DNA from: an uncultured Roseburia sp.
GTDB taxonomy: Bacteria > Bacillota > Clostridia > Lachnospirales > Lachnospiraceae
DNA: 33,730 nucleotides
Reading direction: 5' to 3'
NCBI GenBank assembly: GCA_947246475.1
Contig: CAMXSH010000026.1
Span: 1-33,730, forward strand
Part shown: positions 19,713 to 32,333 of the stretch, in pieces
How positions within the stretch are numbered: the first letter of the stretch is position 1
Layout: every line of letters starts with the position of its first letter
Program-made: the position numbers and the translations under genes
Notes under the pieces: model-generated
Told to the model about the DNA's origin: nothing
What the model saw: the letters and a program-made list of their open reading frames with translations, nothing else
Database searches by the model: none

Positions 19713-19741
19713 TTGAAATGTCAATAAAATTATTGTATAAT
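19713..19741 (+). promoter_or_regulatory. gltB promoter
   Basis: TTGAAA at 19713-19718, a 17-base spacer, then TATAAT at 19736-19741, a near-consensus sigma-A promoter. The predicted start near 19748 gives a leader of about 158 bases before gltB. Confidence 0.8.
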
Positions 19742-19752
19742 GCATTCAGACA

Positions 19753-19807
19753 AAGGTGTCAGAGAAGAAATACATACCCAAAGTGTTTCTTTCTGGCACC
19801 TTTTTTG
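19753..19807 (+). terminator. Leader terminator (candidate attenuator) upstream of gltB
   Basis: Left arm 19753-19770 pairs with right arm 19786-19802 with one G-T and one bulged base, and six T follow at 19801-19806. It lies between the promoter and the ribosome site, so transcripts must read through it to express gltB. A small alternative hairpin (GAC-AAAGGT-GTC, 19749-19760) overlaps the left arm and would compete with it. Confidence 0.7.
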
Positions 19808-19905: not shown

Positions 19906-22900
19906 ATGAGTGGCAAGTATGCAGAGGAGACAAAGAGAAAAGCCATTGGTATGTATGATCCAAGCTTTGAACATGATAACTGCGGGATCGGAGCGATCGT
20001 TAATATTAAAGGAAAGAAAACCCATGACACAGTAAAAAATGCATTGGAGATCGTGGCTCACTTGGAGCACAGAGCCGGGAAGGACGGAGAGGGGAAGACC
20101 GGAGACGGTGTTGGCATTCTGCTTCAGATCTCCCATAAGTTCTTTCAGAAGGTGGCTGCCGGTATGGGGATTGAGATCGGTGGGGAGAGAGAGTATGGTG
20201 TAGGTATGTTTTTCTTTCCTCAGGATGAGCTCAAACGCAACCAGGCAAAGAAAATGTTTGAGACCATCGTGGATAAAGAGGGGCTGGAATTCCTGGGCTG
20301 GCGTGAGGTTCCCATCTCGCCCCGCATCCTGGGAAAAGCAGCGGTGGAGTGTATGCCGTGTATCATGCAGTGTTTTATCAAGAAGCCGGCAGAGCTGGAA
20401 AAAGGGCTGGAATTTGACCGAAAGCTCTACATCGCCCGCCGTGTGTTTGAGCAGTCCAACGAAAACACCTATGTGGTATCTCTTTCCAGCCGTACCATCG
20501 TATATAAAGGAATGTTTTTGGTGGCGCAGCTGAGGCAGTTTTTTGATGATCTGCAGGATCCGGACTACGAATCTGCCATTGCCATGGTTCACTCCCGTTT
20601 CAGCACCAATACCCAGCCCAGCTGGCAGCGCGCCCATCCGAACCGTTTCATCGTGCACAATGGCGAGATCAATACCATCCGTGGAAATGCGGATAAAATG
20701 CTGGCCAGAGAGGAGACGATGGAGTCGGATCATCTGACCGGAGAACTTCATAAGGTGCTTCCGGTGGTAAATACGGAAGGCTCCGATTCCGCTATGCTGG
20801 ATAACACGCTGGAATTTCTGGTGATGAGCGGCATGGAACTTCCTCTCGCCGTGATGATCACGATACCGGAGCCCTGGGCAAATAACCGTTATATCAGTGA
20901 TAAGAAAAAGGATTTTTATCAGTACTATGCTACGATGATGGAGCCCTGGGATGGACCTGCCTCCATTTTGTTTTCAGACGGGGATATCATGGGAGCGGTA
21001 TTGGACCGAAACGGACTCCGCCCCTCCCGCTATTATATCACCGATGACGACCAGCTGATCCTGTCCTCCGAGGTAGGGGTTATGCCTATCAGTGAAGAGC
21101 ATGTGGTGAAAAAGGACCGTCTGCGTCCGGGAAAAATGCTTTTGGTGGACACGGTGAAGGGTGAATTGATCGATGACGATGAACTGAAAGAGACCTTTGC
21201 GTCAAAACAGCCTTATGGAGAGTGGCTGGATACCAATCTTGTGTGTTTGAAAGATCTTCATATTCCGAATAAACGGATTGAAACTTACGATCCCGAGGAG
21301 AGCCTGCGGCTTCAGAAAGCATTTGGCTATACCTATGAGGAAGTGAGGTCTTCCATCCTTCCCATGGCAAAAAATGGTTCTGAGCCCATTGCGGCGATGG
21401 GACATGACACGCCGCTGGCGGCGCTGAGCGGCCAGCCCCAGCCTTTGTATAATTATTTCAAACAGCGTTTTGCCCAGGTGACCAATCCGCCGATTGATGC
21501 TATAAGGGAAGAGGTTGTGACTTCCACTACGGTATACATTGGGGATGCGGGAAATCTGCTGGAAGAGAAGGCAGAAAACTGCCATTCACTCAAGATTGAC
21601 GATCCAATCCTTACGAATACCGATCTTTTAAAGATCAAGTCCATGCATGTACCCGGCTTTAAGGTGGCGGTTATCCCCATCACCTACTATAAAAATACCT
21701 CTTTGGAAAAGGCGATCCATCGTCTTTATCTGGAGGCAGACCGGGCCTATAAGGACGGCGCCAACATTCTGATTCTCTCCGACCGGGGAGTGGATGAAAA
21801 CCATGTGGCGATTCCGGCGCTCCTGGCAGTATCTGCCATGCAGCAGCATCTGGTCAATACAAAGAAGCGGACCTCCCTTTCCATGATCTTAGAGAGTGCG
21901 GAACCAAGAGAGGTGCATCATTTTGCGACGCTGCTCGGATTTGGCGCTACCGCTGTCAATCCTTACCTTGCTCTGGATACGATCCGCAGTCTGATCGACA
22001 GCCGTGTGCTGGATAAGGATTATTATGTGGCAGTGAATGATTATAATTCTGCGGTTCTTCACGGAATTGTAAAGATTGCTTCCAAAATGGGGATTTCCAC
22101 GATCCAGTCCTATCAGGGAGCCAAGATTTTTGAGGCGGTGGGACTGTCTAAAACATTAATTGATCCCTACTTTACAGGAACCGTTTCCAGGATTGGAGGA
22201 CTGGATATAGAGGACATTCAGAACCAGGTAGAGATGCTGCATGATAAAGCATTTGATCCGCTGGAACTTGGTACAGACATTACTCTTGACAGTATTGGAA
22301 ACCACAAGAGCCGCAGCGGAAAAGAAGAGCACCTCTATAATCCGAAGACCATTCATCTTCTGCAGGAGGCGACAAGAACCGGTGACTACAGGAAGTTCAA
22401 GGAATACTCCCATGAGATTGACCGTGAAGACCTTTACGTGAACTTAAGAAGTCTCCTTGACTTTAACTTCCCGAAGAAGGGGATTGCTCTTTCCAAAGTG
22501 GAGAGTGTGGAGGAGATCGTGAAACGGTTTAAGACAGGAGCCATGTCCTACGGCTCCATATCCCAGGAGGCCCATGAGACCCTTGCCATCGCCATGAACC
22601 GGCTTCATGGAAAATCAAACAGCGGTGAGGGAGGAGAGAGCCTGGAACGGCTTACCGTGGGAAAAGACGGTTTGAACCGCTGTTCTGCTATCAAGCAGGT
22701 GGCTTCTGGCCGCTTTGGCGTGACCTCCCGATACCTGGTCAGCGCCAGGGAGATCCAGATCAAGATGGCGCAGGGCGCAAAGCCGGGAGAGGGCGGACAT
22801 CTGCCGGGGAAAAAAGTATATCCCTGGGTGGCAAAGACGAGACACTCTACACCAGGGGTATCTCTGATCTCGCCACCGCCACATCATGATATTTATTCCA

Positions 22901-24468
22901 TCGAAGATCTGGCACAGCTGATCTATGACCTGAAAAACTCCAACCGGGATGCGAGGATATCGGTGAAACTGGTATCTGAGGCAGGTGTCGGCACCGTGGC
23001 AGCCGGTGTGGCGAAGGCAGGAGCAGGGGTGATACTGATCTCCGGCTATGACGGCGGTACTGGTGCGGCGCCGGGAAGCTCCATTCACAATGCCGGGCTT
23101 CCCTGGGAGCTGGGACTGGCAGAGACCCATCAGACGCTTTTGATGAACGGACTGCGGTCTAAGGTGGTTATCGAGACCGATGGAAAGCTGATGACTGGGC
23201 GTGATGTTATGGTCGCCGCTCTTCTTGGGGCGGAAGAATTTGGATTTGCCACAGCGCCTCTTGTGACCATGGGATGTGTTATGATGCGGGTATGCAACCT
23301 GGATACCTGTCCGGTGGGTGTGGCGACACAGAATCCGGAACTTCGCAAGAGGTTTAAGGGAAAACCGGAATACGTGGAGCATTTTATGAGGTATATCGCA
23401 GACGAAGTCCGGGAGCTGATGGCGAAATTTGGCGTGGCTACGCTGGATGAGCTGGTGGGACGTTCCGATTTTCTGAGAGTGCGGGAAGATATTGATAATG
23501 AAAGAGCCGGCAAACTGGATCTCTCTGCGATCATCGACAACCCCTTTGTGAAGGAGAAAAAGAGTAAGTTCAACAGCAAAGATATCTATGACTTTAAGTT
23601 AAATAAAACCTTGGATGAAAAAGTCTTTCTGAAAAAATTTGCAGAGAATCTGGAGACCGGGGAAAAGAAGACCATTACAGCAAAGGTAACCAATATTGAC
23701 CGCTCTCTGGGAACGATTTTTGGATCCCAGATCACAAAGAAACTGGGAGACGATCTGGAAGAGGATACCTTTACGATAAAATGTACTGGAAGCGGCGGGC
23801 AGAGTTTTGGCGCTTTCATCCCCAAAGGGCTGACCCTGGAGCTTAAAGGTGACAGCAATGACTACTTTGGCAAGGGTCTTTCCGGAGGAAAACTAATCGT
23901 GTACCCGCCGGAAAATATCCAGTATAAGCCAGAGGATAACATTGTGATCGGGAATGTGGCGCTGTACGGCGCCACCAGCGGTACCGCTTTTATCAATGGT
24001 GTGGCAGGGGAGCGGTTCTGTGTTAGAAACTCTGGCGCTCACGCTGTTGTAGAGGGTGTGGGCGAGCATGGCTGCGAGTATATGACCGGCGGCTGTGTGG
24101 TGATCCTCGGCTCAACCGGAAAGAACTTTGCCGCAGGGATGAGCGGCGGTATCGCTTATGTTCTGGATGAGAACAGCGATCTGTATCTGAAACTGAATAA
24201 AGAACTGGTTTCCTCAGAAGCAGTGTCCGACAAATATGATGTCATGCAGCTAAAGGATATGATCGCGGCGCATGTAGAGGCGACGGGTTCAGAAAAGGGT
24301 AAGGAGATTCTTGAGAACTTCAAGGAAGTTCTTCCGAAGTTCAAGAAGATCATACCTCATGATTACAAGAACATGCTGCAGAAAATTGCCATGATGGAAG
24401 AGAAAGGGCTGAGCAATGAACAGGCCCAGATCGAGGCATTTTATGAGACCCAGAAGGAGATTTCCTGA
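19906..24468 (+). CDS. gltB: Glutamate synthase, large subunit
   Basis: GltB converts glutamine plus 2-oxoglutarate to two glutamates; 1520 residues, normal for the family. A short propeptide precedes Cys26 in FEHDNCGIGAI, the N-terminal nucleophile of the class II amidotransferase domain (to ~430). A central domain, the FMN/synthase domain (~830-1190, e.g. QGAKPGEGGHLPGKKV and ISGYDGGTGAAPGSS) and a GXGXG beta-helix near the C-terminus follow. The 3Fe-4S ligands are Cys1124, 1130 and 1135 (CVMMRVCNLDTC). I start at ATG 19906, seven bases after GGAGG. The frame is open back to 19756, but that part lies in the leader terminator and is not family-like. Electrons come through GltD, encoded next. 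Confidence 0.96.
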   Translation: MSGKYAEETKRKAIGMYDPSFEHDNCGIGAIVNIKGKKTHDTVKNALEIVAHLEHRAGKDGEGKTGDGVGILLQISHKFFQKVAAGMGIEIGGEREYGVGMFFFPQDELKRNQAKKMFETIVDKEGLEFLGWREVPISPRILGKAAVECMPCIMQCFIKKPAELEKGLEFDRKLYIARRVFEQSNENTYVVSLSSRTIVYKGMFLVAQLRQFFDDLQDPDYESAIAMVHSRFSTNTQPSWQRAHPNRFIVHNGEINTIRGNADKMLAREETMESDHLTGELHKVLPVVNTEGSDSAMLDNTLEFLVMSGMELPLAVMITIPEPWANNRYISDKKKDFYQYYATMMEPWDGPASILFSDGDIMGAVLDRNGLRPSRYYITDDDQLILSSEVGVMPISEEHVVKKDRLRPGKMLLVDTVKGELIDDDELKETFASKQPYGEWLDTNLVCLKDLHIPNKRIETYDPEESLRLQKAFGYTYEEVRSSILPMAKNGSEPIAAMGHDTPLAALSGQPQPLYNYFKQRFAQVTNPPIDAIREEVVTSTTVYIGDAGNLLEEKAENCHSLKIDDPILTNTDLLKIKSMHVPGFKVAVIPITYYKNTSLEKAIHRLYLEADRAYKDGANILILSDRGVDENHVAIPALLAVSAMQQHLVNTKKRTSLSMILESAEPREVHHFATLLGFGATAVNPYLALDTIRSLIDSRVLDKDYYVAVNDYNSAVLHGIVKIASKMGISTIQSYQGAKIFEAVGLSKTLIDPYFTGTVSRIGGLDIEDIQNQVEMLHDKAFDPLELGTDITLDSIGNHKSRSGKEEHLYNPKTIHLLQEATRTGDYRKFKEYSHEIDREDLYVNLRSLLDFNFPKKGIALSKVESVEEIVKRFKTGAMSYGSISQEAHETLAIAMNRLHGKSNSGEGGESLERLTVGKDGLNRCSAIKQVASGRFGVTSRYLVSAREIQIKMAQGAKPGEGGHLPGKKVYPWVAKTRHSTPGVSLISPPPHHDIYSIEDLAQLIYDLKNSNRDARISVKLVSEAGVGTVAAGVAKAGAGVILISGYDGGTGAAPGSSIHNAGLPWELGLAETHQTLLMNGLRSKVVIETDGKLMTGRDVMVAALLGAEEFGFATAPLVTMGCVMMRVCNLDTCPVGVATQNPELRKRFKGKPEYVEHFMRYIADEVRELMAKFGVATLDELVGRSDFLRVREDIDNERAGKLDLSAIIDNPFVKEKKSKFNSKDIYDFKLNKTLDEKVFLKKFAENLETGEKKTITAKVTNIDRSLGTIFGSQITKKLGDDLEEDTFTIKCTGSGGQSFGAFIPKGLTLELKGDSNDYFGKGLSGGKLIVYPPENIQYKPEDNIVIGNVALYGATSGTAFINGVAGERFCVRNSGAHAVVEGVGEHGCEYMTGGCVVILGSTGKNFAAGMSGGIAYVLDENSDLYLKLNKELVSSEAVSDKYDVMQLKDMIAAHVEATGSEKGKEILENFKEVLPKFKKIIPHDYKNMLQKIAMMEEKGLSNEQAQIEAFYETQKEIS

Positions 24469-24500
24469 CAGCGGCCCTGACAGGGACCAGGGGAAAGACG

Positions 24501-24529
24501 TTGCATTGCATATATAATTAATTTATAAT
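24501..24529 (+). promoter_or_regulatory. gltD promoter between gltB and gltD
   Basis: TTGCAT at 24501-24506, a 17-base spacer, then TATAAT at 24524-24529. The start near 24536 would give a leader of only ~15 bases before the GltD ATG, and part of the ribosome site (AGAGGG) lies at the very 5' end. Confidence 0.6.
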
Positions 24530-24550
24530 GAAGAAAGAGGGTTGAAAGCT

Positions 24551-26017
24551 ATGGGAAAACCAACCGGATTTTTAGAATATGAACGCAGGGGAAACACGGA
24601 GATGGCACCCCTTGAACGGATCCAGAACTTCAATGAATTTCATGTGCCCATGGGGGAAGAGGAGCGCCGCTGCCAGGCGGCCAGATGTATGGACTGCGGC
24701 GTGCCCTTCTGCCAGTCAGGAATGATGATTGGCGGGATGGCTTCTGGGTGTCCGCTAAACAATATGTGCCCGGAATGGAACGATCTGATCTATCTGGGAA
24801 ACTATGCAGAGGCATTGGGAAGGCTGCTCAAGACTAACAATTTTCCGGAGTTTACCTCCCGGGTCTGCCCGGCGCCCTGTGAGGCGGCATGTACCTGCGG
24901 GCTGAACGATACACCGGTCACCATTAAGGAAAACGAAAATGCCATCATTGAATACGGTTATGCCAATGACCTGATGGCGGCGAAGCCGCCGAAGGTGAGG
25001 ACTGGGAAAAAAGTGGCGGTGGTAGGCTCCGGTCCCTCTGGCCTGGCGGCGGCAGACCAGTTAAATAAGCGAGGACATAATGTGACAGTCTTTGAGCGCT
25101 CCGACCGCCCCGGCGGGCTTCTGATGTACGGGATCCCGAACATGAAGTTAGAAAAGGCAGTGATCGAAGGCAGGGTTAAGATCATGGAAGAAGAGGGAGT
25201 AGAATTTAGAACGGGAGTTAATGTGGGAGTTGACGTGAAGGCAGAAGAACTTTTGAAAGATTATGACAGGGTGATCCTCACCTGCGGTTCGTCGAAGCCC
25301 AGGGACATCAAAGCGCCGGGCAGAGAGGCAGAGGGAATATATTTTGCCGTAGATTATCTCATGAGGGTGACAAAACATGTGATGGATCCAGCGTATAAAG
25401 ATGTGATCGATGCCAAAGGAAAAAATGTGCTGGTGATCGGCGGTGGAGATACCGGAAACGATTGTGTGGGATCTTCCATCCGACAGGGGGCAAAAAGTGT
25501 AGTACAGCTGGAGATGATGCCCAAACCACCGGAAGAGCGCGCCGACAATAACCCCTGGCCGGAGTGGCCCAAGGTATTGAAGACCGATTATGGACAGCAG
25601 GAGGCCATCGCCGTGTTTGGCAGCGATCCGAGGATCTATGAGACCACGGTAAAAGAATTTATCAAAGATGAAAAGGGCTGTGTGACTAAGGTGAAGGCGG
25701 TGAAACTGGCCTGGACCAGGGATGAAAAGACAGGACGCATGAACATGGGTGAAGTACCGGGCAGCGAATATGTTCTGGATGTGGATCTCGTATTGATCGC
25801 CGCCGGGTTTCTGGGAACCCAGGAATATATCGCTGAGGATTTTGGACTGAAACTGACTGACCGGAACAATGTGTACACCAGACCTGGTCAGTATAAGACA
25901 AATGTAGAACATGTATTTGCCGCCGGCGATATGCACCGGGGACAGTCCCTGGTGGTATGGGCAATCCGGGAAGGCCGGGAGGTGGCAAGAGACGTAGATG
26001 AGGATCTGATGGGATAG
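24551..26017 (+). CDS. gltD: Glutamate synthase, small subunit
   Basis: GltD supplies electrons from NADPH through FAD and two 4Fe-4S clusters to GltB; 488 residues. N-terminal cysteine clusters are [19 protein letters not shown] and [12 protein letters not shown]. The FAD-binding dinucleotide fold starts [17 protein letters not shown], and the NADPH fold is [13 protein letters not shown]. The C-terminal FAD contact is [31 protein letters not shown] is the usual N-terminus, so ATG 24551 is preferred over TTG 24542, which is too close to AGAGGG. It can be transcribed with gltB and from its own promoter; 90 bases separate it from the GS-like gene with no terminator seen. Confidence 0.96.
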
Positions 26018-26107
26018 TCGAACTTAAATTAAATGTAATTCAAGAGTAACTTGAAGTGAAATGGATTGGGCAAAAACATCTGGTATTGATTATTTAGGAG
26101 GAGAAAA

Positions 26108-27430
26108 ATGGGAAATTATACCAAGCAGGATATTATACGGTTAGTGGAAGAGGAAGACGTGGGATTTATCCGTCTGCAGTTTGTGGACAGTTTTGGCGGG
26201 TTAAAAAATGTGGCGATGACCAGCGACCATCTCGATCAGATCCTGAACAACCGCTGTATGTTTGACGGAGCTGCTATTCAGGGATATGACACCAAGGAAT
26301 TATCAGAATTTATCCTGGCTCCAGATCTGGATACTTTTACCATTTTCCCCTGGCGTCCCCAGAGAGGAAGGGTGGCGAGATTCATCTGCGATGTGCTCAA
26401 TCCTGACGGCACCCCCTATGAAGCAGATCCGAGATATATATTAAAAAAAGTAGCGGCGGAGGCAGAGAGAGAGGGATTTTCCTTCCACGTGGGACCGGAA
26501 AGCCAGTTTTTCCTTTTCGATACCGATGAGAACGGACAGCCCACGACGAATTCCAGGGAAAAGGGTGGATTCTTTGATATCGGGCCGCTGGATTCCGGGG
26601 AAAATGCGAGACGCGACATGATACTTTCCCTGGAGGAGATGGGCTTTGTCATGGAAAGTTCTTATCACTCCAATGAGGTGGCACAGCACTGCATCGATTT
26701 TATGTGTGATGAGGGACTGCGCACTGCGGACAATATCATGACTTTTAAGCTGACGGTACGCACAGTAGCAAAGCGGCATGGGCTGCATGCCACCTTTATG
26801 CCAAAACCGAAATACGGATTAAAAGGATCTGCAATGATGCTTAACATGTTTTTGAGCAAAGATGGAGATAATATATTTGCCGACGAGAGTGCGGCGGACG
26901 GCATGAGCCAAACGGCATATCATTTTATGGCGGGCATCATCCGTCACATCAAAGGGCTGACCCTGATCAATAATCCTATCATAAATTCCTATAAACGGCT
27001 GGTACCAGGCTACAATGCACCAGTAGAGATCACCTGGTCCCGTACCAGCCGAACCCCTCTGATCCGCATCACCAATATAGGCGTGATCGGTCCCAGAGTG
27101 GTACTGCGGAGCCCAGATGGCGCCAGCAATCCTTATCTGGTCCTGGCGGGCTGTCTGGCTGCCGGGCTGGAAGGGATCCGGGAGAAACTGGAACCGCCGG
27201 TGAGCATGGATGACATCAGCGACATCAGCGGGGAACAGGATCCGCGGTTTGACATTCTGCCTAGATCGCTGCGGGAGGCGATTCATGCTTTTGAAGAAGA
27301 TACATTTTTGCAGAATGTGTTTGGAAAAACCCTCTCCGAGATCATAATCAATGAAAAGAAAGAAGAGTGGGAGGAATTTTCCCGACAAGTGACAGCCTGG
27401 GAGGTGGAAAAATATCTCCACCGCGTATAG
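26108..27430 (+). CDS. Glutamine synthetase-like protein with degenerate active site
   Basis: A 440-residue protein aligning end to end with type I glutamine synthetase (CMFDGAAIQGYD, TADNIMTFKLTVRTVAKRHG, INSYKRLVPGY, RTPLIRI, LRSPDGASNPYLVLAG). Catalytic positions are altered. GPE-x-E is GPESQFF, with Gln133 for a metal Glu. HHE(IAPAQ)HEIDF is HSNEVAQHCIDF, with Ser188 and Cys195 for two metal Glu. NGSGMH is KGSAMM, with Lys239 and Met244 for Asn and the metal His. PGYEAP is PGYNAP, with Asn303 for the catalytic Glu. RVELR is RVVLR, with Val332 for a metal Glu. Glu131 and the substrate-binding arginines (297, 315, 320, 334) remain. It should therefore be unable to make glutamine and is probably a pseudoenzyme or sensor. 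AGGAGG precedes the ATG; the ANTAR gene follows 25 bases later. Confidence 0.88.
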   Translation: MGNYTKQDIIRLVEEEDVGFIRLQFVDSFGGLKNVAMTSDHLDQILNNRCMFDGAAIQGYDTKELSEFILAPDLDTFTIFPWRPQRGRVARFICDVLNPDGTPYEADPRYILKKVAAEAEREGFSFHVGPESQFFLFDTDENGQPTTNSREKGGFFDIGPLDSGENARRDMILSLEEMGFVMESSYHSNEVAQHCIDFMCDEGLRTADNIMTFKLTVRTVAKRHGLHATFMPKPKYGLKGSAMMLNMFLSKDGDNIFADESAADGMSQTAYHFMAGIIRHIKGLTLINNPIINSYKRLVPGYNAPVEITWSRTSRTPLIRITNIGVIGPRVVLRSPDGASNPYLVLAGCLAAGLEGIREKLEPPVSMDDISDISGEQDPRFDILPRSLREAIHAFEEDTFLQNVFGKTLSEIIINEKKEEWEEFSRQVTAWEVEKYLHRV

Positions 27431-27455
27431 TGTATATAGGTACAGTAGGAGGTGA

Positions 27456-28007
27456 ATGTCTGCCATGCGGATCCTTGTCGCATTTCAGAAACTGGAGGAT
27501 GCAAAAAAAATTAAAAGCGTTTTGAACCGCGGCGGTTTTGATGATATACTGGCCTGCAATAGTGCGTCCCAGGTGATCGGCGTGGCAAATGATTCCGATG
27601 GGGGTATTGTGATCAGCGGCTATAAGCTGCCAGACATGCACTACAGTGAATTATTTGGATATCTGCCGAGAGGATTTTCCATGCTTCTGGTGGCAAGCCC
27701 CGCCAGACTGGAGGACTGCTACAGCCGGGAGATCGTGTGTCTGTCCATGCCGGTTCATTCCCGGGAGCTGATCAATACCATACATATGATGACCATGGAT
27801 CTCGCCAGGGAATTAAGACGGCGGAAGAAAACGCTGCCGAAAAGGCGGACGGCGGAGGAGCAAAAGACCATTGATGCGGCGAAGGCTCTTTTGATGGAGC
27901 GAAATCAGATGACGGAAATGGATGCACATAAATATATCCAGAAGCTCAGTATGGACAGCGGGAATAACCTGGTGGAAACGGCGGAAATGATCCTGGCGTT
28001 TGAATAA
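27456..28007 (+). CDS. ANTAR-domain RNA-binding antiterminator with pseudo-receiver
   Basis: A 183-residue protein. Residues 4-105 have the receiver fold order, but the phospho-acceptor is Gly55 (VISGYKLPDM instead of LLDxxMP), the acidic pair after the first strand is missing (ILVAFQKL), and the conserved Lys is Met (CLSMPVHSREL). A helical linker rich in Arg/Lys follows. An ANTAR domain lies at 133-181 (EEQKTIDAAKALLMERNQ, TEMDAHKYIQKLSMD, VETAEMIL), with the family's AK-x-x-LM and DAHKYIQKLSM pattern. ANTAR proteins bind paired hexaloop hairpins and prevent termination. A pseudo-receiver like that of AmiR suggests control by a protein partner. AGGAGGTGA at 27447-27455 directly precedes ATG 27456; ATG 27465 is equally possible. 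Its stop overlaps a 28007 ATG just before carA. Confidence 0.85.
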   Translation: MSAMRILVAFQKLEDAKKIKSVLNRGGFDDILACNSASQVIGVANDSDGGIVISGYKLPDMHYSELFGYLPRGFSMLLVASPARLEDCYSREIVCLSMPVHSRELINTIHMMTMDLARELRRRKKTLPKRRTAEEQKTIDAAKALLMERNQMTEMDAHKYIQKLSMDSGNNLVETAEMILAFE

Positions 28008-28024
28008 TGGAATGGAGGCAGTAT

Positions 28025-29128
28025 ATGAAAGCTTATTTGATTCTGGAAGATGGAACCGTATTTACCGGAAAAAGTATCGGAAGTACAAGAGAAGTGATCA
28101 GTGAGATCATATTTAACACTTCCATGACCGGTTATCTGGAGGTGCTGACGGATCCCAGTTACGCGGGACAGGCGGTGGCAATGACCTATCCGCTCATTGG
28201 AAATTATGGCATATGCCGCAGGGACATGGAATCAAAGAGATCCAGTGTGGATGGTTTTATTGTCCGTGAATTGTCCAGGCTCAGCAGCAATTTCCGGGAT
28301 GAGCAGAGTGTACAGGATTTTCTGGTGGAGCAGGATATTCCGGGAATTGAAGGCATCGATACCCGCGCCCTCACCAAGATTCTGCGGGAAAAGGGAACGA
28401 TGAACGGTATGATTACCACCAATGCAGCTTATGATCTGGATGCCGTCACCAGTCAGTTAAAACAATATAGTGTCCTCGGCGTCGTTGACAGGGTGACAAC
28501 AAAAGAAGTTGTCTCCTATCGACCAGGGGATTTCGACACAGATAGCAGCATTCCGATCACGAAGAAGGTTGCTATTCTTGACGTAGGGACGAAATACAAT
28601 ATTGCCAGATGTCTGCTGAGACGGGGCTGTGAGGTGATGGTCTATCCTGCGCGGACAAAAGCGGAGGATATTCTGGCGGAGAATCCTGACGGCATCATGA
28701 TCACCAATGGTCCAGGGGATCCAAAGGACTGCGGGGAAGTGATCGGGAACCTGAAAATCCTTTATGCCTCAGATATACCGATTTTTGCCATCTGTCTTGG
28801 CCATCAGCTGATGGCCCTTGCTATGGGTGCGGATACCGAGAAGATGAAGTATGGACACCGGGGCGCGAATCATCCAGTGAAGGATCTTGAGACAGGCAGA
28901 GTCTATATCTCATCCCAGAACCACGGGTACGTCGTAAAAGAGGATACCGTTCCGGAGGGAGTGGCAGAGACAGCTTTTGTCAATGTAAACGATGGCACTG
29001 TGGAGGGACTGAGATATTTAGGAAAGAATATTTTTACGGTGCAGTTTCACCCGGAAGCATGTGCCGGACCAAAGGATTCCGAAATATTGTTTGAGCGGTT
29101 CATGAGTATGATGAAGGAGGAAGCGTGA
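28025..29128 (+). CDS. carA: Carbamoyl-phosphate synthase small subunit (glutaminase)
   Basis: CarA hydrolyses glutamine and channels ammonia to CarB; 367 residues. The N-terminal domain begins AYLILEDGTVFTGKSIGS and contains IFNTSMTGYLEVLTDPSYAGQ. The class I amidotransferase triad is Cys257 in FAICLGHQLMALA, and His342 and Glu344 in VQFHPEACAGP. ATG 28025 has TGGAGG seven bases upstream; the in-frame ATG 28007 overlaps the previous stop and has no site. It lies in the same transcript as the ANTAR gene. The product feeds arginine and pyrimidine synthesis, which fits the argCJBD/argG genes nearby. Confidence 0.96.
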   Translation: MKAYLILEDGTVFTGKSIGSTREVISEIIFNTSMTGYLEVLTDPSYAGQAVAMTYPLIGNYGICRRDMESKRSSVDGFIVRELSRLSSNFRDEQSVQDFLVEQDIPGIEGIDTRALTKILREKGTMNGMITTNAAYDLDAVTSQLKQYSVLGVVDRVTTKEVVSYRPGDFDTDSSIPITKKVAILDVGTKYNIARCLLRRGCEVMVYPARTKAEDILAENPDGIMITNGPGDPKDCGEVIGNLKILYASDIPIFAICLGHQLMALAMGADTEKMKYGHRGANHPVKDLETGRVYISSQNHGYVVKEDTVPEGVAETAFVNVNDGTVEGLRYLGKNIFTVQFHPEACAGPKDSEILFERFMSMMKEEA

Positions 29129-29129
29129 T

Positions 29130-32100
29130 ATGCCTAAGATGGAAGGAATACAGAAGGTCTTGGTGATTGGCTCTGGTCCGATCGTCATTGGACAGGCAGC
29201 AGAATTTGATTATGCGGGGACCCAGGCATGCCGTTCCCTGAGAGAAGAGGGGATGGAGGTTGTTCTGATCAACTCAAATCCCGCTACCATCATGACGGAT
29301 AAGGATATCGCGGATAAGGTTTATATCGAGCCGCTGACAGTGGACGTGGTAAAAAATCTGATCCGGAAGGAAAAGCCGGACAGCGTCCTGCCCACGCTGG
29401 GGGGCCAGGCTGCCCTGAATATTGCCATGGAGCTGGAAGAGTGTGGATTTCTGGAGGAAGAGAAAGTACGATTGATCGGAACTACCTCCCTGACGATCAA
29501 AAAAGCCGAGGACCGTCTGGAATTCAAACAGACCATGGAAAAGATCGGAGAGCCCATCGCCGCCAGTGAAGTGGTGGAGACCGTGGAAGATGCGGTGGCA
29601 TTTACAAACACCATCGGCTATCCCGTGGTGATCCGCCCGGCATATACCCTGGGGGGCAGCGGAGGCGGCATCGCTGACAGCGAGGAAGAGCTGAGGGAGA
29701 TCTGTGCCAATGGCCTGCGTCTCTCCCGAGTGGGGCAGTGCCTCATCGAACGCTGTATCGCTGGCTGGAAAGAGATCGAGTATGAGGTGATGCGGGATGC
29801 CGGTGGCAACTGCATCACGGTCTGCAATATGGAGAATCTCGATCCTGTGGGCGTCCATACGGGAGACAGTATTGTGGTGGCGCCATCCCAGACCCTGTCG
29901 GATAAAGAATATCAGATGCTCCGGTCCTCAGCATTAAATATCATCACTGAACTGAACATCACGGGAGGGTGCAACGTACAGTTTGCCCTCCATCCGGAAT
30001 CTTTTGAGTACTGTGTCATTGAGGTAAATCCGAGAGTCAGCCGTTCTTCCGCCCTTGCATCAAAAGCTACGGGGTATCCTATCGCCAAGGTGGCGGCGAA
30101 GATCGCCCTGGGCTATACTCTGGATGAGATCCCCAATGCCATCACCGGCAAGACTTTTGCCAGCTTTGAGCCGGCGCTGGATTATTGTGTGGTGAAGATT
30201 CCAAGATTGCCTTTTGATAAGTTTATCAAGGCGAAGAGGACCCTGACCACCCAGATGAAGGCCACAGGAGAGGTCATGAGCATCTGTACCAATTTTGAAG
30301 GGGCTCTGATGAAGGCGCTGCGTTCCCTGGAGCAGCATATTGACAGCCTGGATATCGGCAGATATACAGACCGTTCCAAAGAGGAACTGTTAGAGCGTGT
30401 CCGTATCGTGGATGACCGGAGGATCTATATTATAGCGGAACTGATCCGAAAGGGAGCGAGCTACGATGAGATTCATGAGATCACAAAGATCGATCTCTGG
30501 TTTATCGATAAGATAGCGATCCTGGTGGAGATGGAGCAGCGTCTTAAGAGGGAGCCGCTGACACCGGAACTTCTTGCGGAGGCAAAACGGATTGAATTCC
30601 CTGATAAGGTCATCGCCGGTTATGCCGGAATGACAGAGCGGGAAGTTCATGACCTGCGTATCGCCAATGGCATTACCGCCGCCTTTAAGATGGTAGATAC
30701 CTGTGCGGCGGAATTTGAGGCGGCGACCCCCTATTATTACAGCTGCTTTGGCAGTGAGTGCGAAGCAGATGTGGTGAAAACAAAGAAAAGGGTGATGGTG
30801 CTTGGTTCTGGTCCTATCCGCATCGGTCAGGGAATCGAGTTTGATTTTTGTTCGGTGCACAGCGCCTGGTCGTTAGAACAGAGTGGTTATGAGACCATTA
30901 TCGTAAATAACAATCCAGAGACCGTAAGTACAGATTTTGATGTGGCAAATAAGCTGTACTTTGAGCCCCTGACTCCAGAAGATGTAGAAAATATCGTGGA
31001 CATTGAAAAGCCCGATGGAGCTGTCGTTCAGTTTGGCGGACAGACCGCCATTAAGCTCACCCAGGCACTGATGGAGATGGGGGTTCCGATTTTTGGAACC
31101 AGCGCAGAAAATGTGGATGCCGCAGAGGACAGAGAGCTGTTTGATCAAATTCTGGAGAAGTGTGGGATCCCGAGGCCGAAGGGACATACCGTGTTTACCA
31201 CCGAAGAGGCTTTGGAGGCGGCAAATAAGCTGGGATATCCGGTACTGGTGCGCCCCTCCTATGTGCTGGGTGGTCAGGGGATGCAGATCGCCATCAATGA
31301 TGACGATATCATTGAATTTATGTCCATCATCAACCGCCATGTACAGGAACATCCGATCCTTGTGGACAAGTATCTGATGGGGAAAGAAGTGGAAGTCGAT
31401 GCTGTGTGTGATGGTGAAGATATTCTCATACCTGGTATTATGGAACACATTGAGCGCGCGGGGATTCATTCGGGAGACAGTATCTCCGTCTATCCGGCCC
31501 AGAGCATAAAACCGGAAATTCAGGAAATGCTGGTGGATTATACGAGAAAGCTTGCCAGATCCCTCCATGTCATCGGCTTAATCAACATTCAATTTATCGT
31601 GTATCATGAGGACGTCTATGTGATCGAGGTCAATCCCCGTTCTTCCCGGACGGTGCCCTATATCAGCAAGGTTACGGGGATTCCCATTGTAAAACTGGCT
31701 TCCCAGGTGATCCTGGGAGCAAAGATCAGAGAACTTGGATATGAGACAGGACTGGCGAAAAAGGCAGAATATATCGCCATCAAAATGCCAGTATTTTCCT
31801 TTGAAAAACTCCGTGGCGCCGAGATCAGCCTGGGACCGGAGATGAAGTCCACCGGAGAGTGTCTCGGCATCGCCAGGACCTTCCATGAGGCGCTGTCAAA
31901 GGCATTTCTTGGCGCTGGCATCAATCTGCCGCAGCACAAAAAAATGATTCTCACAGTACGTACCCAGGAACAGGAAGATGCAGTTCCCATCGCCAGACGT
32001 TTTCTTGCCCTGGGATATGAGATCTATGCTACCCTGGGAACGAAAAAAGCCCTTGCCAGGGCAGGCGTTGATGTGATCGGCATCAATAAGATTGAGCAGG

Positions 32101-32333
32101 AAGCGCCGACGCTGATGGATCTGCTGCTGGAACATGAGATCGATCTGGTGATCGATATTCCCAAGCAGGGAGAGCATTCCCATGATGGTTTTCTGATCCG
32201 GCGGACTTCTATCGAGACAGGCGTCACCTGCCTTACCTCCCTGGATACGGCAAATGCCCTGCTGACTTCTTTGGAACATGTGGATAAGACCCAGATGTCA
32301 CTGATCGATATTGCAGCCATCGAGGGGCGTTAG
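29130..32333 (+). CDS. carB: Carbamoyl-phosphate synthase large subunit
   Basis: CarB makes carbamoyl phosphate from bicarbonate, ammonia and 2 ATP; 1067 residues, full length. Two homologous ATP-grasp halves start VLVIGSGPIVIGQAAEFDYA and VMVLGSGPIRIGQGIEFDF. Each has a glycine-rich ATP loop (AYTLGGSGGGIA and SYVLGGQGMQIA) and a metal-binding VNPR motif (CVIEVNPRVSRSSALASKAT; YVIEVNPRSSRTVPYISKVT). The C-terminal MGS-like domain (~930-1067) is the allosteric site for ornithine/UMP in the family. AAGGAGG lies at the end of carA, and the genes are one base apart. The stop codon at 32331-32333 directly abuts the stop of the convergent potassium gene. Confidence 0.97.
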   Translation: MPKMEGIQKVLVIGSGPIVIGQAAEFDYAGTQACRSLREEGMEVVLINSNPATIMTDKDIADKVYIEPLTVDVVKNLIRKEKPDSVLPTLGGQAALNIAMELEECGFLEEEKVRLIGTTSLTIKKAEDRLEFKQTMEKIGEPIAASEVVETVEDAVAFTNTIGYPVVIRPAYTLGGSGGGIADSEEELREICANGLRLSRVGQCLIERCIAGWKEIEYEVMRDAGGNCITVCNMENLDPVGVHTGDSIVVAPSQTLSDKEYQMLRSSALNIITELNITGGCNVQFALHPESFEYCVIEVNPRVSRSSALASKATGYPIAKVAAKIALGYTLDEIPNAITGKTFASFEPALDYCVVKIPRLPFDKFIKAKRTLTTQMKATGEVMSICTNFEGALMKALRSLEQHIDSLDIGRYTDRSKEELLERVRIVDDRRIYIIAELIRKGASYDEIHEITKIDLWFIDKIAILVEMEQRLKREPLTPELLAEAKRIEFPDKVIAGYAGMTEREVHDLRIANGITAAFKMVDTCAAEFEAATPYYYSCFGSECEADVVKTKKRVMVLGSGPIRIGQGIEFDFCSVHSAWSLEQSGYETIIVNNNPETVSTDFDVANKLYFEPLTPEDVENIVDIEKPDGAVVQFGGQTAIKLTQALMEMGVPIFGTSAENVDAAEDRELFDQILEKCGIPRPKGHTVFTTEEALEAANKLGYPVLVRPSYVLGGQGMQIAINDDDIIEFMSIINRHVQEHPILVDKYLMGKEVEVDAVCDGEDILIPGIMEHIERAGIHSGDSISVYPAQSIKPEIQEMLVDYTRKLARSLHVIGLINIQFIVYHEDVYVIEVNPRSSRTVPYISKVTGIPIVKLASQVILGAKIRELGYETGLAKKAEYIAIKMPVFSFEKLRGAEISLGPEMKSTGECLGIARTFHEALSKAFLGAGINLPQHKKMILTVRTQEQEDAVPIARRFLALGYEIYATLGTKKALARAGVDVIGINKIEQEAPTLMDLLLEHEIDLVIDIPKQGEHSHDGFLIRRTSIETGVTCLTSLDTANALLTSLEHVDKTQMSLIDIAAIEGR

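Follow-up and report, generated by a model that had tools for sequence, protein, structure and literature searches.

The window analysed here, 33,730 nucleotides from an uncultured Roseburia sp. (contig CAMXSH010000026.1, or C26 of genome G000, an assembly of 2.66 Mb in 98 contigs that is 93% complete), contains an operon with the gene order gltB-gltD-pGS-ANTAR-carA-carB, as read from the list of open reading frames (ORFs) and their translations (Table 1). The subject of this report is the pair of genes in its middle, which encode a degenerate glutamine synthetase (GS), denoted pGS for pseudo-glutamine synthetase, and a protein with an ANTAR RNA-binding domain, together with the hairpin-terminator leaders that this protein might read. 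The first-pass annotation, made from the sequence alone, had placed the two genes between gltD and carAB, separated by a gap of 25 bases that is free of terminators. Coordinates and domains are confirmed, and a pattern scan of positions 24400-28100 likewise found no terminator in the gap. The sole terminator-like site in the scanned region (27264-27283) lies inside the pGS gene, one site compared with a mean of 3.3 in shuffled sequences, and neither promoter-like nor terminator-like sites exceed the shuffle level there. With pGS and the ANTAR gene behind the gltB leader and no excess of internal promoter or terminator sites, the operon would be autoregulated.

Loss of catalytic residues in the ANTAR-linked glutamine synthetase

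Matches to Gln-synt_N and Gln-synt_C over its full length identify pGS as a type I GS (GSI) by sequence family; phmmer aligns it to the Bacillus subtilis GS (4s0r) with an E-value of 4e-140, and its 418.9 bits fall just below the NCBIfam GlnA cut-off of 429.15. Compared with B. subtilis GS, pGS of the window carries the changes E134Q, E189S, E196C, H245M, E304N, E333V, S55A, S56A and R62T, and keeps E132, D53, R298, R316 and R335. For part of the metal-ligand and catalytic positions, the roles are those that we take them to have. The remaining roles follow PMC9249791 (this and the other papers cited by PMC number are represented here by excerpts). Judged from the alignment, pGS has lost most metal ligands as well as the E304 flap glutamate and lacks the residues that define a type I GS as an enzyme. 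Among the 22 full-length pGS sequences of its own clade (a set that leaves out a truncated copy in G032 and a diverged second copy in G033), E189, E196, H245, E304, E333 and R62 are lost in every case and E134 is replaced by Q in 10, whereas E132, D53, R298 and R316 are kept in all 22 and R335 in 21. The substitutes are constrained as well, with N304 present in 22 and S189 in 21 of the 22 proteins. Of 11 dead-clade pairs, nine yielded an estimate of dN/dS for pGS, with values of 0.019-0.047 (dS exceeds 1 in four of the nine), and in all nine the ratio is below that of the ANTAR gene, in one of them narrowly. By these estimates, pGS is not decaying: the protein lacks the usual active site, yet is conserved and under strong purifying selection. 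The kept R298, R316 and R335 could hold an acidic ligand without metal. The second copy in G033 (L092, on contig C52) is part of a diverged pGS-ANTAR-carA-carB cluster beside the standard pair, and its GS is 56% identical and has different catalytic losses.

The partner of pGS belongs among the ANTAR proteins, with an ANTAR domain that scores 58.9 bits against a curated cut-off of 27.3 and is located behind a sensory domain and a helix. At what we take to be the phospho-acceptor Asp and conserved Lys positions of the receiver motif, the proteins of the own clade have Gly and Met, respectively, so that the sensory domain departs from a two-component receiver; G049 and G056, from other families, retain the Asp. 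Without the phospho-acceptor, regulation by a kinase is unlikely and another input would be needed, as in AmiR. An AlphaFold2 (AF2) model of the protein (mean predicted local confidence, pLDDT, 75.9) consists of a receiver-like part, a long helix and three helices, and its top matches in the PDB are EutV, Rv1626 and AmiR, although the TM-scores are modest (0.38-0.46). Of the residues by which EutV contacts RNA (PMC8934654), M172 and K143 have their equivalents retained in the alignment.

The adjacency of the two genes, which the first-pass annotation had made a test of its proposal, is conserved. In a first set of 61 genomes, the own one included, 46 have a gene with an ANTAR domain, and a GS-like gene is directly upstream of it in 44 of the 46 by hand tally; the exceptions are G003, with an ANTAR fragment at a contig edge, and G045, in which the ANTAR gene is elsewhere. 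The named relatives among the matches are metagenome-assembled genomes labelled Eubacteriaceae, Eubacterium, Roseburia, Lachnoclostridium and Lachnospiraceae. A wider sample at class level comprises 118 genomes; 66 of these bear ANTAR (including the own genome and G102, which scores below the family cut-off) and 52 do not, and the two genes are adjacent in 53 of the 66. The neighbours of the pair vary by lineage, and include the orders gltD-carA-carB-pGS-ANTAR, pGS-ANTAR-GSIII (G049, G056; GSIII denotes type III GS) and GSIII-gltB-gltD-pGS-ANTAR (G019). Across own-genus loci with the standard pair, in-frame gltB identity is 83-98%. G099 has two GS-ANTAR pairs (L303, L276), one with a Bacillus-like GS and one with a divergent type in which R62 is changed, and should be useful for separating the two roles.

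Class-wide, changes in the catalytic residues occur solely beside ANTAR genes. The comparison covers 69 GS and leaves out partial-match distant types, G109, G050, and the second copies of G062 and G096. With E304D counted, 23 of the 53 ANTAR-adjacent proteins deviate in one or more of 11 catalytic residues, compared with none of the 16 others (Fisher p=5e-4, kinship ignored); one of these 16, in G069, is cut off by a contig edge and could in fact be adjacent. On a quick tree of 89 GS, built from part of the relatives and with G080 dropped, the label 'two or more lost' needs seven changes, at least five of which are forced by supported branches. A separate, more careful tree, which omits L031, L106, L063, L058 and L056, places apart the own dead clade (20 rows, support 99/97) and a second one (8 rows, 100/100) characterized by D53N, S55R or G, E132K or M and E304T, with intact or partly changed GS between the two. 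In genomes from the same taxonomic order (for example, G039, G040 and G046), the pair occurs with a GS in which every tested catalytic residue is intact, so the ancestral state was probably a working GS with an ANTAR protein. Searches of the own genome found one ANTAR gene and two GS genes, pGS and a 707-aa GSIII on contig C2, and the working GS of this genome is probably the GSIII, encoded elsewhere. Each of the 31 genomes in which the GSI belongs to one of the two dead clades was found to have GSIII (the fragmentary second-clade genomes G007 and G009 are outside this count). By contrast, GSIII was not found in G003, G040, G045, G046 and G050, five of the 10 relatives with a GS that is intact at the 11 positions. 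This distribution suggests that catalysis seems to be expendable once GSIII is present, while something tied to ANTAR is not. The repeated loss of catalytic residues, in the class-wide sample solely beside ANTAR genes, supports a sensor role of the GS.

Leaders with a putative single hexaloop

If the ANTAR protein acts as an antiterminator, terminator-bearing targets are to be expected in the same genome, and two candidates, as anticipated by the first-pass annotation, precede gltB and the GSIII gene. In the gltB leader (Table 1), a small hairpin starts seven bases past the -10 box, and the 5' arm of an intrinsic terminator shares the loop and 3' arm of this hairpin, which makes the two structures mutually exclusive. 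Over 54 bases, which start shortly upstream of the hairpin and include the terminator stem, the window does not differ from five near relatives, whereas the flanks vary. The GSIII leader (G000:C2:51618-51660, minus strand) has the same arrangement, with AGAAC[GAGGGU]GUUCU as its hairpin. Of the predicted loop signature, A at position 1 and G at position 4 (A1, G4), both bases are found in the gltB leader, in which A1 could however pair with U6, and G4 alone in the GSIII leader, which has G1 instead of A1. The two leaders are what remains of five own-genome matches to a terminator model of the element, R1, in which the hairpin stem was left unpaired; matches on C33, C46 and C3 (E 7e-4 to 0.01) have stems of at most 2 bp and were rejected. 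The pattern GACAANGNNGTC has 20 matches in the own genome, of which the one at the gltB leader alone combines a promoter and a terminator. Rfam at gathering scores gave no match in the window, and 20 other loci gave chance-level microRNA matches alone.

Table 1. Features of the gltB operon and its leader in the window
Feature	Position	Strand	Remarks
gltB-operon promoter TTGAAA, 17 nt, TATAAT	19713..19741	+	sequence match
Small hairpin GAC[AAAGGU]GUC, putative ANTAR target	19749..19760	+	near predicted RNA 5' end; hexaloop A1, G4
Intrinsic terminator hairpin and U-tract	19752..19806	+	5' arm formed from loop plus 3' arm of small hairpin
gltB, glutamate synthase large subunit	19906..24468	+	first gene of the operon; in-frame translation of 1520 aa
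gltD, glutamate synthase small subunit	24542..26017	+	ORF as listed; true start may be a downstream ATG
pGS, pseudo-glutamine synthetase, GSI-alpha family	26108..27430	+	domain matches, residue alignment, dN/dS
ANTAR protein, 183 aa: Asp-less receiver, long helix, ANTAR RNA-binding domain	27456..28007	+	alternative start ATG 27465
carA, glutamine-dependent carbamoyl-phosphate synthase small subunit	28025..29128	+	named from sequence, without family search
carB, carbamoyl-phosphate synthase large subunit	29130..32333	+	named from sequence, without family search

The element is present in 16 of the 17 gltB leaders compared, each from a different genome (it is absent in G019), 4-6 nt downstream of a TATAAT box in the 16 aligned leaders; gltB starts, from which the leaders were cut, are accurate to about a base, and L097, which has no element, was dropped from the gltB element set. 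It is also found in all 22 own-clade GSIII leaders that were compared and in 30 of 61 GSIII leaders overall. The ANTAR-less genomes G042, G051, G052, G057 and G058 are without it in the GSIII leader (two of these leaders are shortened by contig ends), and ANTAR-less G032, in which the GS gene runs off the contig end, has it. The GS-ANTAR operons with intact GS in G046 and G039 are preceded by the element too, in G039 as GAAC[AAAGGC]GUUC, which lies roughly 60 bases upstream of the start codon of the GS gene. Searches with R1 extended the list in relatives to amtB, purF, asnB and a class-II amidotransferase gene. A family search confirmed one gene of each kind, and the other amtB and purF genes were recognised by eye; several relatives have element-bearing amtB leaders, although no ammonium transporter match was found in the own genome, G000. 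Among the class-wide matches, the downstream genes recognised are GSIII, ammonium transporters, a GOGAT (glutamate synthase)-like amidotransferase and one GSI, and at about ten loci no downstream gene was recognised. Two further loci were unexpected in a nitrogen regulon: L237 (G031), where the element precedes a circularly permuted ATP-grasp gene, and L231 (G011), where it precedes a RelA/SpoT-like gene (by eye). L244 (G176) has two hairpin-terminator elements on one strand about 500 bases apart (989-1052 and 1501-1564), possibly two attenuators.

The stem of the element covaries. The training alignment A1 consists of 39 elements picked for a stem of at least 3 bp closed by C-G and a RANGR loop, and its own stem statistic is therefore not independent. 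Outside the training set, the covariation score is 0.549 compared with 0.283 for shuffled alignments, none of 500 shuffles reached the former value, and slid registers give at most 0.332 (19 of 20 R1 matches; the one on C46, which matched only model positions 6-44, was left out). Class-wide, the corresponding values are 0.656 and 0.307, again with none of 500 shuffles reaching the former and slid registers giving at most 0.192, for 37 matches at 29 loci, a set that includes palindromic false matches. In both sets, the letters of the model still favour the training stem. Inspection of the class-wide alignment A5 by eye shows a stem of 3 bp or more in the main match itself at 26 of the 29 loci (not at L242, L243 and L250), and a scripted count of 27 refers to the best place per locus rather than to the match; stems extend up to 8 bp.

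Furthermore, the element is statistically linked to ANTAR. In the class-wide sample, which serves as a hold-out, 35 of the 66 ANTAR-positive genomes have R1 matches (E<=1e-3), compared with seven of the 52 ANTAR-negative ones (p=6e-6), and the link is maintained without the own genome (34 of 65, p=8e-6). The first 61 genomes, which include those used for training, gave R1 matches at E<1e-4 in 37 of 46 ANTAR-positive and two of 15 ANTAR-negative genomes; for families other than the own one, the counts are 5/11 and 1/13 (p=0.048).

In the ANTAR targets described so far, a short linker joins two hexaloops, each with A1 and G4 (PMC3369931, PMC8164766); the linker has 5-12 nt (PMC3369931, PMC8934654), and the first-pass annotation had accordingly called for dual hexaloops. 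This expectation failed: none (stems of at least 4 bp) was found in 162 upstream regions, with 0 to 4 in shuffled sequences, and the candidate targets are single. The element starts a median of 10 nt past the best -10 match, so near that there is scarcely room in the RNA for a second hexaloop. A2 and G4 are present in all 37 class-wide matches, A1 in 36 and C6 in 31, a constancy of the loop, and of the innermost stem letters, that is partly built in by training; with C6 nearly always opposite A1, the loop ends cannot pair in those matches. The authors of the EutV-RNA structure argue that one hexaloop is the minimal binding motif (PMC8934654), so that a single-hexaloop target is plausible but unproven.

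A putative nitrogen circuit and its alternatives

We propose, with a probability of roughly 0.57, that the pair consists of a nitrogen-status sensor, pGS, and an RNA-binding output, the ANTAR protein with the Asp-less receiver, which reads the single-hexaloop leaders. The ancestor would have had an operon of a working GS and ANTAR, with the GS already informing the ANTAR protein; in lineages in which GSIII makes glutamine, GSI would have been free to lose catalysis and would have been retained as a non-catalytic regulatory subunit. In the leader RNAs of the gltB operon and of GSIII, the ANTAR protein would bind the hairpin with one hexaloop close to the 5' end, and the bound hairpin would remove the 5' arm of the terminator, so that RNA polymerase reads through. 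We infer that pGS contacts the ANTAR protein and sets its free or active amount according to an amino-acid or nucleotide ligand in the remodelled pocket; by analogy with NasS-NasT and Bacillus GS-GlnR, pGS would hold ANTAR when nitrogen is plentiful. The first-pass idea of a sensor-antiterminator pair gains support as far as a sensor-like pair with candidate targets is concerned, and is not supported for the dual loop.

Several observations weigh against this proposal. R62 and E304, the residues that read glutamine in the feedback-inhibited GS of Bacillus, are both absent (R62T and E304N in 22 of 22), so pGS is not a glutamine sensor of that kind, and glutamine itself may not be the ligand; an AF2 model of pGS, built from eight close sequences, had a pLDDT of 40 and was set aside. 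With the stricter label of at least two residues lost, the contrast between ANTAR-adjacent GS and the others shrinks to 9/53 and 0/16 (p=0.08). In the ANTAR protein, Tyr164 of EutV, which stacks on the G, corresponds to His158, and no basic residue stands at the positions of R142 and K147. The hairpins raise doubts of their own: three of 61 elements, compared with 4.7 in shuffles, have a further A1/G4 hairpin whose end lies no more than 20 nt upstream, many own-clade leaders would allow an A-U or G-U pair between loop bases 1 and 6, 14 of 23 own-clade GSIII hairpins were scored as tetraloops in an unbiased scan, G occupies loop position 1 in 13 of 22 such leaders, and the isolated gltB hairpin of the window folds as a 4-bp tetraloop at -1.4 kcal/mol, with the terminator at about -26. 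No R1 match was obtained for nine of the 46 ANTAR-positive genomes of the first set (at 1e-4) and 31 of the 66 in the class-wide sample (at 1e-3). Conversely, G041 has an R1 match at 1e-5 with no ANTAR detected, and G160 (L266) and G097 (L267) have clear-looking elements with no ANTAR detected, in which case either the ANTAR gene is absent from the assembly or another protein reads the element. Finally, the candidate regulon mixes makers and users of glutamine, which gives no clear sign of control.

Some of these points favour other explanations. The ANTAR protein might read the single-hexaloop leaders as proposed while pGS does not contact it and has another job, such as binding PII, GSIII or a metabolite, the two genes being neighbours merely because they share a nitrogen operon. 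This is unlikely, yet deserves serious consideration: the operon is a general one for nitrogen, with gltBD and carAB, and the Bacillus-style glutamine contacts are gone from pGS. However, GS and ANTAR stay together while the surrounding gene order differs among lineages, the class-wide sample has changed catalytic residues solely in ANTAR-adjacent GS, and an ANTAR protein devoid of the phospho-acceptor Asp needs another input. The doubts about the hairpin would be accommodated if the leaders were read by something else, or were plain terminators with a conserved initial sequence. The single hexaloop, the possible 1-6 pairing, the two genomes with the element and no detected ANTAR, and the position of the conserved bases at the likely transcription start, where promoter constraints act too, agree with such a scenario. 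It is nevertheless quite unlikely, given that the stem covaries outside the training set though it was unpaired in the model, that A1, A2 and G4 are near-constant with an A1-C6 mismatch in the class-wide matches, and that R1 matches track the presence of ANTAR class-wide.

Two more explanations concern pGS itself. It might still be an enzyme, merely regulated by ANTAR, that acts on a different substrate (as a gamma-glutamyl ligase would) or has its metals rewired. GS-like ligases with other substrates exist, and models of these match pGS below their cut-offs; E132, R298, R316 and R335 are mostly retained. A role of this kind is very unlikely considering that E189, E196, H245, E333 and the E304 flap are lost throughout the 22 own-clade proteins and that other ANTAR-adjacent lineages lost different residues, which a single new activity would not explain. 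Hardly credible is a recent, decaying pseudogene, for which the missing active-site residues might be taken: the selection estimate (dN/dS 0.02-0.05) contradicts it, the frames are open and the loss spans the whole clade.

Should the sensor-output pair exist as proposed, an enzyme would have become a signalling pseudoenzyme several times beside the same partner, and a large group of Clostridia would gain a defined nitrogen circuit. To our knowledge, many of these Clostridia lack the nitrogen regulators of Bacillus and enteric bacteria. The definition of ANTAR targets would also be loosened from two hexaloops to one, and missed targets could be found. We see about even odds for the broader generalization that in Clostridia a retired GS has repeatedly become the dedicated nitrogen receptor of an ANTAR antiterminator, and that a one-hexaloop leader at the transcript start controls GSIII, GOGAT, AmtB and glutamine amidotransferases.

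Comparison with known systems

Neither the pairing of a dead GS with ANTAR nor a leader with a single hexaloop was the subject of any paper listed in a search of the open-licence literature. A close counterpart is NitR of Clostridium saccharobutylicum, reportedly the subject of a study by Stutz and colleagues in 2007, whose gene presumably adjoins glnA, with a GS that we take to be a working enzyme. NitR is a nitrogen-cluster ANTAR protein said to antiterminate under nitrogen limitation (PMC6316151, PMC4676874), and is thus, like the protein described here, an ANTAR regulator of GS/GOGAT-cycle genes in a clostridium. The differences are that the GS here is dead and candidate RNA targets are mapped, whereas the excerpted accounts of NitR contain no GS-like sensor partner.

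The arrangement of a partner gene alongside the ANTAR gene is shared with AmiC-AmiR and NasS-NasT. AmiR also has an Asp-less receiver (PMC8934654), and in NasS-NasT the partner releases the ANTAR protein as set by a ligand (PMC3795266). In both, however, the partner is of the solute-binding-protein type rather than GS-like, and the published leaders are dual-hexaloop. The Bacillus feedback-inhibited GS is a nitrogen sensor that touches GlnR and TnrA, with GlnR in the same operon, and reads glutamine by E304 and R62 (PMC9249791); a GS-type protein encoded beside a regulator is common to both cases, with contact only proposed here, whereas the Bacillus regulators bind DNA, their GS is active and the E304 and R62 contacts are absent from pGS. 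On the RNA side, there is a likeness to the targets of EutV, which is also a fold match of the ANTAR model: as far as the excerpts describe them (PMC3369931, PMC8934654), these combine an A1/G4 hexaloop on a short stem with a 3' arm shared with the terminator, in front of nitrogen genes, but have two hexaloops where the present leaders have one near the RNA 5' end, sometimes with G1. What is new here is the set of likely RNA targets, as a one-hexaloop form of ANTAR antitermination.

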